Of a stretch of 64,000 nucleotides of DNA, positions 10,382 to 36,137 are shown piece by piece (position 1 is the first letter of the stretch; each line of letters starts with the position of its first letter). A model generated the notes under the pieces. It had not been told where the DNA came from and ran no database searches. It saw nothing but the letters and a program-made list of their open reading frames with translations. The stretch lies in NCBI RefSeq assembly GCF_003326795.1, contig NZ_JPWI01000010.1:1-64000 (forward strand), given 5' to 3'. The DNA comes from Thalassospira profundimaris (GTDB taxonomy: Bacteria; Pseudomonadota; Alphaproteobacteria; Rhodospirillales; Thalassospiraceae). Both the position numbers and the translations under genes were made by a program.

Positions 10382-11629
10382 ATGAAAGAGCCGCGCGTAG
10401 TTACATTTGGATGTCGTCTGAACACCTATGAGTCCGAGGTGATGCGCGATCATGCCAAAAATGCCGGCCTTGATGATGCGATCATCATCAATACCTGTGC
10501 TGTCACGACCGAGGCCGAACGTCAGGCGCGCCAGAGCATCCGTCGGCTGCGCCGGGAAAATCCCGATGCCAAGATTTTCGTGACCGGCTGCGCGGTACAG
10601 GTCAATCCGGATAAATTTGCCAAAATGACCGAGATCGACCGTATCTTTGGCAATGATGCCAAGATGAAGGCCGAAACGTTCCTGATGCCGGAACATGAAC
10701 GTGTTGTCGTCAATGACATCATGTCGGTGGAAGAAACTGCAAGTCACCTTGTATCGGGGTTCGAGGGGCGTGCGCGTGCGTTCGTTCAGGTCCAGAACGG
10801 TTGCGATCACCGTTGTACGTTCTGCATCATTCCGTTTGGTCGCGGGAATTCGCGCAGTGTCCCGATGGGTGAGATCGTCACCCAGGTCCGGGAGCTGGTT
10901 TCCAATGGCTATGGCGAGGTTGTCCTGACCGGGGTCGATATCACGTCCTATGGTCATGATCTTCCGGGGCAGCCGACCCTTGGGCAGATGTCGCGCCGTT
11001 TGCTGGCGCAGGTTCCTGAATTGCCGCGCTTGCGCATTTCATCAATTGATCCGGTCGAAGTTGACGAAGAGCTGTTTCGACTGATCGAAACCGAACCGCG
11101 TCTGATGCCGCATATGCATATCAGTTTGCAGGCAGGTGATGACATGGTGCTTAAACGCATGAAGCGCCGCCATCTGCGTCAGGATGTTGTGGATTTCTGC
11201 AAAAAGGTCCGCGAATTACGTCCCGATGTGACATTCGGCGCCGATATCATCGCAGGTTTCCCGACCGAAACCGACGAGATGGCTGAAAATACGCTGCGCC
11301 TTGTTGATGAATGCGGTCTGATTTACCTGCATGTCTTTCCCTATTCAGCGCGCCCAGGAACCCCGGCCGCACGGATGCCGCAGGTGCCAAAGGATCTTCG
11401 CAAGGAACGCGCAAGTGCGCTTCGCGACGCCGGCGACGTTCAGTTGAACAATTTCCTGAAATCACGTATCGGCATGATCGAGAATGTGCTGGTTGAAAAG
11501 GAAAATACTGGCCATACGGAGCATTTTGCTCCCGTTCTGCTTGATCGCGTGATAGAACCGGGCTCGATAGCAAAGGCCAAGGTTACCGGCCTTGAAGATG
11601 GAAAACTGATTGCGGAGCTTGTGGGATGA
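10382..11629 (+). CDS. mtaB: tRNA t6A37 methylthiotransferase MtaB
   Basis: A radical-SAM methylthiotransferase (about 415 residues) that converts t6A37 to ms2t6A in tRNAs. The UPF0004 domain cysteines appear as FGCRLNTYE, NTCAVTTEAE and TGCAVQ. The SAM-cluster motif CDHRCTFCIIPFGRGNSRS begins near residue 141. A degenerate TRAM-like segment closes the protein. ATG 10382 is preferred because MKEPRVVTFGCRLN matches the family start; an in-frame upstream start at 10343 cannot be excluded. The stop overlaps ftsY by 4 nt. Confidence 0.93.
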   Translation: MKEPRVVTFGCRLNTYESEVMRDHAKNAGLDDAIIINTCAVTTEAERQARQSIRRLRRENPDAKIFVTGCAVQVNPDKFAKMTEIDRIFGNDAKMKAETFLMPEHERVVVNDIMSVEETASHLVSGFEGRARAFVQVQNGCDHRCTFCIIPFGRGNSRSVPMGEIVTQVRELVSNGYGEVVLTGVDITSYGHDLPGQPTLGQMSRRLLAQVPELPRLRISSIDPVEVDEELFRLIETEPRLMPHMHISLQAGDDMVLKRMKRRHLRQDVVDFCKKVRELRPDVTFGADIIAGFPTETDEMAENTLRLVDECGLIYLHVFPYSARPGTPAARMPQVPKDLRKERASALRDAGDVQLNNFLKSRIGMIENVLVEKENTGHTEHFAPVLLDRVIEPGSIAKAKVTGLEDGKLIAELVG

Positions 11630-32616: not shown

Positions 32617-32789
32617 GTTCCAATGGTTTCACGTGTCGGGCAAGGATACCGGACAGTGTGGAGGTAATCGGGATGAAACATGGCAAATTCAAGGTCGTGT
32701 CGACTGCTTTTTATGCATGGACCCTTGCATAAATGCCACTGGTGATTGGCCAATTTCCTTGACCGGCATTTTGGTTTAATCTAACCGTC

Positions 32790-32972
32790 AGATGTCGGTA
32801 TCCGGATATCGGATAAAGGGAATTCGACGTGGCCTGTCAAACAGGTCATTAACCGAAGCTGCCCCCGCAACTGTAGGCGGTGAGTGTTTTTCTGACCAAT
32901 GCCACTGGGAACCAACCCGGGAAGGCCAGGAAAAGCATGATGACCCGCGAGCCAGGAGACCTGCCGACATGA
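32790..32972 (+). promoter_or_regulatory. cobalamin (B12) riboswitch aptamer
   Basis: Conserved aptamer segments appear in order: AAAGGGAA, the B12 box-like GCCCCCGCAACTGTAGGCGG, GCCACTGGGAACC, CCGGGAAGGCC and AGCCAGGAGACCTGCC. P1 is closed by ATGTCGG (32792-32798) with CCGACAT (32964-32970). It lies upstream of an ABC importer operon, so adenosylcobalamin would be expected to repress it. The apparent expression platform extends to about 33074. Confidence 0.95.
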
Positions 32973-33101
32973 ATGCGACGGACCGGGCGGGGTGCCCCGG
33001 AGAATGTCGGCTTATGTCCCGGTCTTCGGGAGCTCGCCAAGGTTTGACCTGAGCTCTGACCCCGACATCTTCCGCCATTTCCCGACACTTTTGCCAGTCC
33101 C

Positions 33102-33139
33102 TTGACAGTAGAAATGTGATCGTTATGTTATAACATAAC
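33102..33139 (+). promoter_or_regulatory. internal promoter overlapping a Zur-like palindrome
   Basis: TTGACA at 33102-33107 and TATGTT at 33124-33129 (16-nt spacer) form a plausible promoter. The 18-bp perfect palindrome GTTATGTTATAACATAAC (33122-33139) covers its -10 region. The sequence TGTTATAACATAACA (33127-33141) matches the general Zur-box consensus TGTTATAnTATAACA at all but one defined position. It sits between the riboswitch and the importer start. Confidence 0.6.
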
Positions 33140-33209
33140 ATTTGTGGTGTGCTGTGTTTGGAGCAGGGAAACCTGGTCCTGGCCAGTGCATCGTTGAAAG
33201 GAAGTCGAA

Positions 33210-34235
33210 GTGATCAATCACTATAAACGTGTACTGGCGGTCGGGGTGTTTGCCGCTGGTTCTATGGCATCTGCCGCAAGTGTATCTGCAACCGAATATC
33301 CGCTTCAGATCCGCAATTGCGGGACCGTACTTCAGTTTGATTCTGCGCCGGACCGCGTCGTGTCCCTTGGGCAAAGCACAACAGAAATCCTTTATTCACT
33401 GGGACTTGCCGACAAGGTCAAAGGGACCAGTGTCTGGTTTGGCCCGGTTATGGATGAATTCAAGGATGTCAACGCAACCGTTCCGCGTCTGGCCGATAAT
33501 GATCCGGGATTTGAAACCGTGGTTGCGCAAAAGCCGCAACTGGTTGCCACCCAGTATCAATGGCATGTCGGTCCCAAGGGGATTGTCGGAACCACCGAGC
33601 AGTTCAGCGAACTTTCCATCCCGGTTTATACCGCACCGGCCGATTGCGTCGGCAAGGACAATACGGGTGGCGGCGACGGTGTCCGCCATGACGATTTCAC
33701 CATGAACCTGATTTATCAGGAGATCACCGATCTTGCGCAGATCTTTAATGTCGAGGATCGCGGCGAAGCCCTGATAGCCAAACTGCATGCCCGCGAAGCC
33801 CGGTCGCTGGAACAGGTGAAGGCAAGCGGACATGATAATGTATCTGCCGTTTTCTGGTTTTCGAGTGCCGAGATCAAAAGCGATCCCTATGTGGCCGGTA
33901 AAAATGGTGCAGCGGGTTATATCGCAGGCAAACTTGGTGTGACCAACATCATCGATAGTCCGGAAGAATGGCCGACCGTTGGATGGGAAACCATTGCACG
34001 TGCCAATCCCGATATCATCGTGATCGGCAAGATGGGGCGTCGCCGTTTCCCGGCAGATGACTGGCAGGTCAAAATGGACTTCCTGAAAACCGACCCTGTC
34101 ACAAGCCAGATGAAGGCGGTGAAAAACGGCAATATCGTTGTGATGGATGCCCAGTCGATGGATCCGACAATCCGCCTGATCGAGGGGATTGAAACACTGG
34201 CCGAGGCCGTCGAACGACTAAGTGCTTCGAACTGA
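33210..34235 (+). CDS. ABC transporter substrate-binding protein, BtuF/FecB family
   Basis: 341 residues from GTG with AAAGGAAG upstream. The signal peptide ends near ASVSA (about residue 27). Periplasmic binding protein type III fold (PF01497-like): DRVVSLGQSTTEILYSLGLA, then a long central helix, then ARANPDIIVIGKMG. First gene of a three-gene importer under the cobalamin riboswitch, so the cargo is probably cobalamin, a corrinoid or a related metal chelate. The Zur-like site raises a zinc or cobalt connection. Confidence 0.85.
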   Translation: MINHYKRVLAVGVFAAGSMASAASVSATEYPLQIRNCGTVLQFDSAPDRVVSLGQSTTEILYSLGLADKVKGTSVWFGPVMDEFKDVNATVPRLADNDPGFETVVAQKPQLVATQYQWHVGPKGIVGTTEQFSELSIPVYTAPADCVGKDNTGGGDGVRHDDFTMNLIYQEITDLAQIFNVEDRGEALIAKLHAREARSLEQVKASGHDNVSAVFWFSSAEIKSDPYVAGKNGAAGYIAGKLGVTNIIDSPEEWPTVGWETIARANPDIIVIGKMGRRRFPADDWQVKMDFLKTDPVTSQMKAVKNGNIVVMDAQSMDPTIRLIEGIETLAEAVERLSASN

Positions 34236-34275
34236 TCGCATAAGGCAAAGGCGTTCGATATGCCCGGAGAATTCA

Positions 34276-35340
34276 ATGTTTGAAAAAACGCCAGTTCATC
34301 CGCCTGCACAAAGACGGGCGGGACGGGCATATCTTGTGCGAACCGGTGCAGTTTTTTTCGCACTGGTCTTGCTGATCGGTGTGATTGCGATTGCCGCAGC
34401 CAAGGGGGAAACGGAAATCCCCCTTGGCACGGTTCTTCACACCATTGCCAATCACATCTGGAATGCCGGTTTCGACGTTGATCCGATTGATGGGGGGATC
34501 ATCTGGAATTACCGCATATCAAGGGCGCTTGTGGCCGCCGCTTGCGGTGCATCGCTGGCGTTGTCAGGTGCGGTTTTGCAGGCGTTGTTGCGCAACAGTC
34601 TGGCCGATCCCTATTTGCTGGGTATTTCGGCAGGTGCATCGACCGGTGCGGTCAGTGTTGCGATCCTTGGTTTTGGTGCGGGGATGGTATCCCTGTCCCT
34701 TGGGGCCTTCGCCGGTGCACTGGTGGCATTCGGATTTGTTGCGCTTTTGGCTATTCCGGCGGGACGGAGTGCCGGGGCAATTATTCTGGCCGGTGTTGCC
34801 GGATCCCAACTTTTTAACGCGCTGACATCATTCATCGTGACCAAGGCCGCGACCGCAGACGAGGCACGCGGCATCATGTTCTGGTTGCTCGGGAATCTAA
34901 GCGGGGTGCGCTGGCCCGATGTTTATCTTGCGCTTCCTGTCGCGGTGATCGGGTTGCTGGTGTGTCTTTGGTATGCGCGTGCGCTTGATGCTTTTACCTT
35001 TGGTGTCGAGTCAGCCGCATCGCTTGGTGTGCCGGTTCGCCGGGTTTACGTGGTCCTGATTGCCGTTGCGGCATCCATGACCGCCGTGATGGTCAGTATC
35101 GTCGGTTCCATCGGGTTTGTTGGCTTGGTAATCCCGCATGCTGCGCGCTTTTTTGTCGGAACGCGCCACGGGCTGTTGTTGCCGGTATCCGCCCTGATCG
35201 GGGCAATGTTCCTGGTGGCGGCTGATATCGTGTCGCGCATCATTCTTGATGGCCAGGTATTGCCAATCGGGGTGATAACAGCCCTGATCGGGGCACCGGC
35301 CTTTGCGCTTATCCTTTGTCATGGAAGGGTTCTGCGATGA
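34276..35340 (+). CDS. ABC transporter permease, BtuC/FecCD family
   Basis: 354 residues with about ten transmembrane helices. Family motifs: RISRALVAAACGASLALSGA, LLRNSLADPYLLGISAGAST and GSIGFVGLVIPHAARFFVG. The start at 34276 has GGAGA 5 nt upstream; an upstream extension is not conserved in character. The stop overlaps the ATPase start (ATGA), so stoichiometric translation is expected. Confidence 0.92.
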   Translation: MFEKTPVHPPAQRRAGRAYLVRTGAVFFALVLLIGVIAIAAAKGETEIPLGTVLHTIANHIWNAGFDVDPIDGGIIWNYRISRALVAAACGASLALSGAVLQALLRNSLADPYLLGISAGASTGAVSVAILGFGAGMVSLSLGAFAGALVAFGFVALLAIPAGRSAGAIILAGVAGSQLFNALTSFIVTKAATADEARGIMFWLLGNLSGVRWPDVYLALPVAVIGLLVCLWYARALDAFTFGVESAASLGVPVRRVYVVLIAVAASMTAVMVSIVGSIGFVGLVIPHAARFFVGTRHGLLLPVSALIGAMFLVAADIVSRIILDGQVLPIGVITALIGAPAFALILCHGRVLR

Positions 35341-36137
35341 CCCTTGAATTGCGCAATGTCGGCTGGAATGCCGGGTTCAAGAAAATCATCAGTGATGTGT
35401 CACTCAGCGTGGAGCGGGGTGAGTTTCTGGGGCTGATCGGGCCGAACGGGTCGGGCAAAACCAGCCTGATGACGGTTCTTGCCGGTATTCGTGCGCCGTC
35501 AACAGGGCAGGCGTTGCTTGTTGGTCAGGCCATGAAAAAGATCGGGCGTCGCAATCTGGCGCAACAGATCGGTTTTGTTGAACAGCAGGCCGATACGATT
35601 GACCGCATCACGGTACGCGAGGCGGTTTCACTTGGCAGAACGCCATATCTGAGTTTGCTTTCACCATGGTCTGAACGTGATGATGAAATCGTTGCGGATG
35701 CGCTTGGCAGTGTCGAAATGTCCCAGATGGCAGATCGTATGTGGCAGACCCTGTCGGGCGGGGAAAAGCAGCGTGTGCATATCGCGCGTACCCTGGCCCA
35801 GCAGCCTGACTTTTTGTTGCTTGATGAACCAACCAACCATCTCGACATCCATCATCAGTTGGGATTGCTTGAACTGGTGCGCGCGCTTCCGGTGACGGTG
35901 GTGGCCGCCCTGCATGATCTGAACCATGCCGCGATGTTCTGTGACCGCATTGCAATGATGGATCGTGGTAAACTGATTGCGGTCGGAACACCGGAACAGA
36001 TTTTAACGGCGCAAAATCTGCGCGATGTTTTCGGGGTTGCCGCCGATATCGAAATTGATGATCAGGGCCGCTGTCATATCCGCTATCACGTCGGAACATC
36101 GGGCCATGCGGGCATAAAAAAAGACCGGGTTGCGTAA
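35337..36137 (+). CDS. ABC transporter ATP-binding protein, BtuD/FecE family
   Basis: 266 residues. Walker A GPNGSGKTS near residue 37, Q-loop FVEQQAD, signature LSGGEKQRVHIART near 139, Walker B FLLLDEPTNHLD near 160, H-loop ALHDLNHAAMF. Powers the importer with the two preceding genes. The stop codon lies inside the following terminator hairpin. Confidence 0.94.
   Translation: MTLELRNVGWNAGFKKIISDVSLSVERGEFLGLIGPNGSGKTSLMTVLAGIRAPSTGQALLVGQAMKKIGRRNLAQQIGFVEQQADTIDRITVREAVSLGRTPYLSLLSPWSERDDEIVADALGSVEMSQMADRMWQTLSGGEKQRVHIARTLAQQPDFLLLDEPTNHLDIHHQLGLLELVRALPVTVVAALHDLNHAAMFCDRIAMMDRGKLIAVGTPEQILTAQNLRDVFGVAADIEIDDQGRCHIRYHVGTSGHAGIKKDRVA

Follow-up and report, generated by a model that had tools for sequence, protein, structure and literature searches.

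Layout of the leader and the importer operon

The window, by which we mean the whole 64-kb stretch of DNA analyzed here, lies on contig C2 of a 4.68-Mb genome, and the importer binding protein encoded in it is 88 to 89% identical to five Thalassospira records. Positions 33210 to 36137 hold an ABC importer operon whose three genes encode a binding protein, a permease, and an ATPase, and the features of the operon and its leader are as follows.

32759..32764, + strand: TTGACC, tentative -35 of the upstream promoter for the long transcript (read in the sequence)
32779..32982, + strand: cobalamin riboswitch aptamer (RF00174; Rfam, 105 bits, E = 3.1e-25, full length, positions 1 to 189 of 189)
33102..33107, + strand: TTGACA, -35 of a putative internal promoter (sequence reading and promoter scan)
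33122..33139, + strand: predicted Zur-type operator GTTATGTTATAACATAAC, a perfect 18-bp palindrome over the -10 (sequence, genome scan, and conservation)
33124..33129, + strand: TATGTT, -10 of the putative internal promoter, within the operator (sequence and promoter scan)
33197..33204, + strand: AAAGGAAG, likely ribosome-binding site (read in the sequence)
33210..34235, + strand: substrate-binding protein, CbtJ-like (Peripla_BP_2; 59% identical to the Sinorhizobium meliloti pSymB protein)
34222..35340, + strand: FecCD-type permease of a CbtKL-type importer (PF01032, 282 bits; 74% identical to the pSymB permease)
35316..36137, + strand: ABC ATPase of the importer (PF00005; 61% identical to the pSymB ATPase)

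An earlier note on this DNA had described TTGACA-N16-TATGTT, with a perfect 18-bp palindrome, between a riboswitch and the importer. Both proved exact when the sequence was read directly, and the Rfam match and the gene call place the aptamer before these elements and the GTG start codon of the importer (33210) after them. The aptamer was covered in its entirety and scored far above the gathering threshold of 31.5 bits. The same note had compared the 15-mer TGTTATAACATAACA (positions 33126 to 33140) with a general Zur consensus, and one defined position does differ from that consensus, as it had said.

Upstream of the aptamer, the TTGAC at the 32759 place is kept in the riboswitch-bearing leaders compared (correctly oriented rows); no convincing -10 was found for a promoter there, and the promoter scan makes no call at that place. 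Directly 3' of the aptamer, a GC-rich hairpin sequence, GGGCGGGGTGCCCCGG (window positions 32992 to 33012), is invariant or nearly so in nine aligned leaders and is perhaps part of the riboswitch expression platform. A scan of the leader called no intrinsic terminator between the aptamer and the gene, and the riboswitch may act on either transcription or translation. The GAAAGG of the likely ribosome-binding site is invariant in nine aligned leaders.

When positions 32620 to 33260 were scanned for promoters, TTGACA-N16-TATGTT was the single sigma-70-like site, with 10 of 12 matches. Shuffled sequences contained a mean of 0.4 such sites, compared with the 1 found, so that the promoter match is weak by itself. 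If the site is used, transcription would be expected to start near 33135.

A Zur-type box at the importer and at znuA

With up to 3 mismatches allowed, the pattern of the box matches once in the window, and shuffles average 0.97; what distinguishes the window box is the absence of any mismatch. Scanning the 4.68-Mb genome with the pattern GTWATGNWATWNCATWAC revealed exactly two perfect places, the importer leader and the region upstream of znuA, where the box lies 25 nt 5' of the znuA start (ZnuA scored 284 bits against an NCBIfam cut-off of 268). The motif scan proposed in the earlier note thus finds the same palindrome in front of a gene for zinc uptake elsewhere in this genome. At the level of 2 mismatches, the genome-wide counts were 7/7 for the pattern and 8/8 for a reversed-pattern control; because there is no excess at this level, only the perfect sites are informative, and weaker sites have only their position to speak for them. 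Among the latter are a 2-mismatch box immediately 5' of the likely start of a gene for a ZigA-type GTPase (609.7 bits; cut-off, 600) and a looser form of the box, found in the 15-mer scan only, 10 nt 5' of the zur open reading frame in a zur-znuC-znuB group.

The candidate Zur is the product of a Fur-family gene located 5' of znuC and znuB. Its best model is Zur, at 125 bits and below the cut-off of 167; its best match among solved structures is Escherichia coli Zur, and the PPTVYRALxFL stretch is kept. The genome has three Fur-family genes, and the other two best fit IrrA and Fur. We class the importer box as a predicted Zur operator on three grounds, namely, that the same type of box stands 5' of zinc-uptake genes in the same genome, that the box is conserved in orthologous leaders (see below), and that this genome encodes a Zur-like protein, albeit one scoring under its model cut-off. 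The Zur of Paracoccus denitrificans has been reported to bind GTAATGTAATAACAT-type sites in gel shifts (PMC5387054), and the GTTATGTTATAACAT of the window differs from such a site at two A/T positions. The same kind of box was sought at ZnuA in a chosen set of 30 genomes. It was present upstream of the best match to the ZnuA model with 2 or fewer mismatches in 26 of them and with 3 or fewer in 28, the best match being below the model cut-off in three of the 30. Some of those 26 genomes are without an importer box.

Conservation of the box in Thalassospira

Our genus set comprised 29 genomes, including that of the window; 28 had a match to the importer, and 27 carried an orthologue with at least 64% identity, the remaining two genomes having only a 30% match in one case and none in the other. 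The box stands without mismatch between riboswitch and start in 22 of the 27 orthologous leaders. It was also found in many leaders outside the genus. The earlier note had staked its reading on the palindrome not being absent from orthologous operons and from Zur targets, and it is present at both. TTGAC precedes the box by exactly 20 nt in 21 of the 22 box-bearing leaders, and TTGAT does so in the other. The mean information in these 22 leaders was 1.97 bits per column over the box, compared with 1.37 in the preceding 50 columns and 0.56 in the following 30; with near-copies removed (11 rows), the values were 1.98, 1.29, and 0.48, respectively.

The five box-less leaders keep the riboswitch and lack one continuous block of ~70 nt (a 68-column gap in the alignment), which spans the box and reaches to just before the ribosome-binding site; they also have no TTGAC at the -35 place. 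On the tree of binding proteins, four of them cluster in a single clade, with the fifth apart. These natural absences would provide ready controls.

The importer and its likely cargo

S. meliloti CbtJKL, which is encoded on pSymB behind a cobalamin riboswitch, was first taken for a B12 importer and is reported to carry Co(II) (PMC7689651). On pSymB of S. meliloti CCMM B554, the sole place matching the window importer is a three-gene operon with an Rfam-scored riboswitch, and strain 1021 has the same operon. The pSymB records are without gene names, so we infer the identity of this operon as cbtJKL from the replicon, the uniqueness of the match, and the riboswitch. The pSymB binding protein falls inside the importer family tree. 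Since the window importer, too, is a three-gene operon behind a cobalamin riboswitch and its binding protein shares a family tree with S. meliloti CbtJ, we take it as CbtJKL-type, and cobalt as its probable cargo is carried over from this 59%-identical relative. The earlier note had left the cargo as "corrinoid or cobalt"; with the importer grouping with S. meliloti CbtJKL, the cobalt half is the better supported and the corrinoid half the less so. The binding protein did not qualify as a member of the siderophore-associated EitA family (326 bits; cut-off, 640), though EitA is its best family model.

Other cobalamin riboswitches in the genome lie 5' of cbiM/cbiQ, cobW-cobN, and cobT genes, which indicates a further cobalt importer and a capacity for B12 synthesis. 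The genome scan found no perfect box at any of these three riboswitch loci.

Two arrangements of box and riboswitch beyond the genus

We searched 84,980 species genomes and kept the best 80 of 454 confirmed places. The box (at most 1 mismatch) was present in the 750 nt before the match in 36 of these best 80 leaders, compared with 1 of 974 control pieces, which were of equal size and taken from other parts of these loci, and with 0 of 4,000 shuffled leaders. A chance origin of the box was considered and is set back by this enrichment (36/80 versus 1/974) and by the two-site genome scan. The single control match lies 5' of a gene for an AztC-like zinc-binding protein (306.7 bits; cut-off, 350) beside the importer in an Aureimonas. 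At this locus, in Aureimonas jatrophae (L075:3216-4372), a perfect Zur-type box precedes the AztC-like gene directly upstream of the cbtJKL-type operon; a second perfect box occurs near the end of the same locus (position 10696).

We then classed leaders along a tree of 100 binding proteins, from which seven Thalassospira loci (L020 to L025 and L027) were omitted as repeats of the genus set; six of the seven have the box, and L027 does not. In 32 of the 100 rows, the box is downstream of the riboswitch core (22 rows from Thalassospira, one from L026, a related metagenome-assembled genome, eight from the Agrobacterium tumefaciens complex, and one from a Mesorhizobium), and in 20 it is upstream, with at most 1 mismatch. 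Five further rows with 2-mismatch boxes were classed as upstream, one of them without a detected riboswitch core, and 43 rows have no box. Box-less loci include those of Sinorhizobium L031, L034, L042, and L064, of Shinella, and of the Brucella group. The three states (downstream, upstream, and none) require at least 15 changes on the tree; the link is therefore old or has often been regained, and the place of the box relative to the riboswitch has shifted. A downstream box would constitute a bypass, whereas an upstream box would put both controls on one transcript.

Plasmid records matching the S. meliloti operon numbered 138, of which five from Sinorhizobium were read; in all five of these cbtJKL-type loci, a Zur-like box stands 5' of the riboswitch core, the box having 2 mismatches in strain 1021 and 1 in each of the other four. 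The A. tumefaciens-type leaders, in which the box stands behind the riboswitch, have no clear -35 before it. A small leader peptide over the A. tumefaciens-type box was considered and rejected, as its reading frame is, by eye, not kept in L067. In an Agrobacterium, a terC RNA (RF03067, 60.7 bits; L028:7918-7977) lies behind the importer operon.

A proposed Zur-gated bypass of the riboswitch and its alternatives

We regard it as fairly probable that a CbtJKL-type cobalt importer has a Zur-gated internal promoter that bypasses the cobalamin riboswitch. What the DNA itself shows is which elements are present, in what order they stand, that they are conserved, and that znuA has the same box. From this we propose that a tentative upstream promoter would make a long transcript, which the cobalamin riboswitch would lower at sufficient B12, and that the internal promoter would start a second one near 33135, downstream of the riboswitch. 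Because the -10 sits inside the operator, zinc-loaded Zur would cover it and hold the internal promoter off. Upon zinc shortage, Zur would leave, and a short mRNA would be made whatever the B12 level; because this mRNA would be without the riboswitch, the importer would be produced regardless of B12. The importer would then bring in cobalt or a cobalt chelate, probably as a stand-in for zinc, where the substrate is that suggested by the S. meliloti relative and the benefit, the simplest one, is that proposed for the Zur-controlled pyochelin-cobalt importer of Pseudomonas aeruginosa (PMC11481552). Several findings weigh against this reading: the Zur candidate scores below its model cut-off, the best family model of the binding protein is a siderophore one and its cobalt specificity is carried over from a relative, the promoter match by itself is little above chance, the box is missing from 5 of the 27 Thalassospira leaders and from 43 of the 100 tree rows, no clear -35 precedes it in the A. 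tumefaciens-type leaders, a list of the A. tumefaciens Zur regulon does not name the importer (PMC6103462), and many P. denitrificans importers of the iron/B12 type rise in low zinc without a Zur motif (PMC5387054).

An importer of true B12 (corrinoid) could stand behind the same Zur-gated promoter, with the benefit tied to B12 in zinc shortage. The cobalamin riboswitch in front and the FecCD/BtuC-like permease (219.8 bits; BtuC cut-off, 461) are in keeping with this, as is the fact that methionine synthesis seems to be B12 dependent where MetE is missing, only 1 of the 22 box-bearing Thalassospira genomes having full-length MetE. Cobalamin import was also what was first suggested for the Zur-controlled importer of P. 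aeruginosa (PMC4542158). However, the binding protein reached only 23.3 bits with the BtuF model (cut-off, 234), and the S. meliloti relative, once called a B12 importer, is reported to transport Co(II) (PMC7689651). MetE sparing, in which imported B12 would allow MetH to take over from MetE, a zinc enzyme, was tried as an explanation and fails. The genome of the window has no MetE match, and among 69 chosen genomes (29 Thalassospira genomes and 40 found by way of named loci), full-length MetE above the cut-off was found in 15, including 1 of the 22 box-bearing and 2 of the 5 box-less Thalassospira orthologue carriers. On balance, we consider a corrinoid importer unlikely.

Zur targets are mostly zinc importers, and Zur might gate the promoter because the importer also takes up a zinc chelate, the riboswitch then reflecting a second, cobalt substrate. 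We know of no zinc transport by the CbtJKL-type family, and no histidine, which would be expected at a free-zinc site, occurs among the nearly invariant residues of 38 family members. In favor of such a chelate, the Aureimonas importer adjoins the Zur-box-bearing AztC-like gene, and a review proposes that related Pseudomonas importers take up zinc or cobalt in complexed form (PMC10393844). The relative that has been studied genetically, however, requires the importer for cobalt (PMC7689651). A zinc chelate as the reason for Zur control strikes us as quite unlikely. We think it very unlikely that a different member of the Fur family (Fur or Irr) acts at the box, which would make iron the second input. 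Two of the three Fur-family genes best fit IrrA and Fur, and the importer family resembles siderophore importers, but the other perfect box is 5' of znuA, the weaker ones are at the ZigA gene and zur-znuCB, all of them zinc genes, and the Fur and Irr motifs of Alphaproteobacteria probably differ from the box. The motif is, moreover, one bound by a Zur in gel shifts (PMC5387054). Finally, the palindrome lies in a leader and is predicted to form a 7-bp hairpin, so it could act in RNA, as a riboswitch expression-platform hairpin or a terminator, rather than as a DNA operator. This hairpin is AU rich and without a U-run, and the scan calls no terminator there; the same box also occurs at znuA and, in other genera, 5' of the riboswitch, variants in leaders L111 and L124 disrupt the RNA pairing and keep the box, and the letters are conserved beyond what pairing alone would call for. 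A function in RNA is thus hardly credible.

Relation to known systems

The Zur-gated bypass has partial precedents. The S. meliloti pSymB CbtJKL (PMC7689651) shares with the window importer the gene order, identities of 59, 74, and 61%, the riboswitch in front, and the family tree, and strain 1021 also has the Zur-like box, with 2 mismatches; the S. meliloti locus differs in that its box is upstream of the riboswitch, so that both controls would act on one transcript. P. aeruginosa PA2911-PA2914 is described as a Zur-controlled importer of pyochelin-cobalt, with cobalt lowering the demand for zinc (PMC11481552). It resembles the present case in that Zur controls an ABC importer of the B12/siderophore type whose proposed role is to bring in cobalt in zinc shortage, and differs in having its own TonB-dependent receptor and in that the accessible portions of that report mention no riboswitch (PMC11481552); we liken the two by description.

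Zur regulons of Alphaproteobacteria have the same type of box and have znuABC, zur, and a COG0523 GTPase among their targets, whereas the accessible portions of the same reports name no cobalamin-riboswitch operon as a motif-bearing Zur target (PMC5387054, PMC6103462). A table of the A. tumefaciens Zur regulon in a review, with targets assessed by quantitative reverse transcription-PCR, lists znuABC/troABC, zinT, and yciC but not this importer (PMC6103462). In P. denitrificans at low zinc, many iron- and B12-type importers are reported to rise modestly without a Zur motif, and cross talk with Fur has been considered (PMC5387054). In the literature covered by our partial search, neither a cobalamin-riboswitch operon nor CbtJKL was reported to be under Zur control. 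The earlier note had not known a link of corrinoid or cobalt uptake to zinc status to be described for this importer family. For zinc and cobalt there is a precedent in P. aeruginosa (PMC11481552); neither the link in this family nor the riboswitch bypass was found in print in the literature searched.

More tentatively, and with somewhat less than even confidence, we suggest that a metal sensor overrides a vitamin riboswitch here, freeing cobalt import from B12 control so that cobalt can replace zinc, and that this link recurs across Alphaproteobacteria, in series with the riboswitch or behind it, with the logic rewired. If that is true, many Alphaproteobacteria, S. meliloti among them, would import cobalt as part of their response to zinc starvation, and the final say over the genes behind a cobalamin riboswitch would not lie with the riboswitch. 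The exchange of cobalt for zinc reported for P. aeruginosa could then be tested in marine bacteria and in those associated with plants, and the importer leaders would offer a clean case of regulatory rewiring in which the same two signals act in series in some genera and by bypass in others.

Other B12-related observations in the genome

A partial cobalamin riboswitch match on the - strand (L138:9202-9309; genome C1:835201-835308) scored 41.6 bits, compared with the gathering threshold of 31.5, over positions 45 to 169 of 189. It lies directly 5' of methylmalonyl-CoA mutase genes; a B12 riboswitch in front of an enzyme that depends on B12 would reverse the usual riboswitch logic. MetH, the only methionine synthase found, matches as two adjacent pieces (genome C6:119012-122598; L139 and L140), which cover model positions 331 to 1181 and 2 to 340, the smaller match containing one internal TGA.
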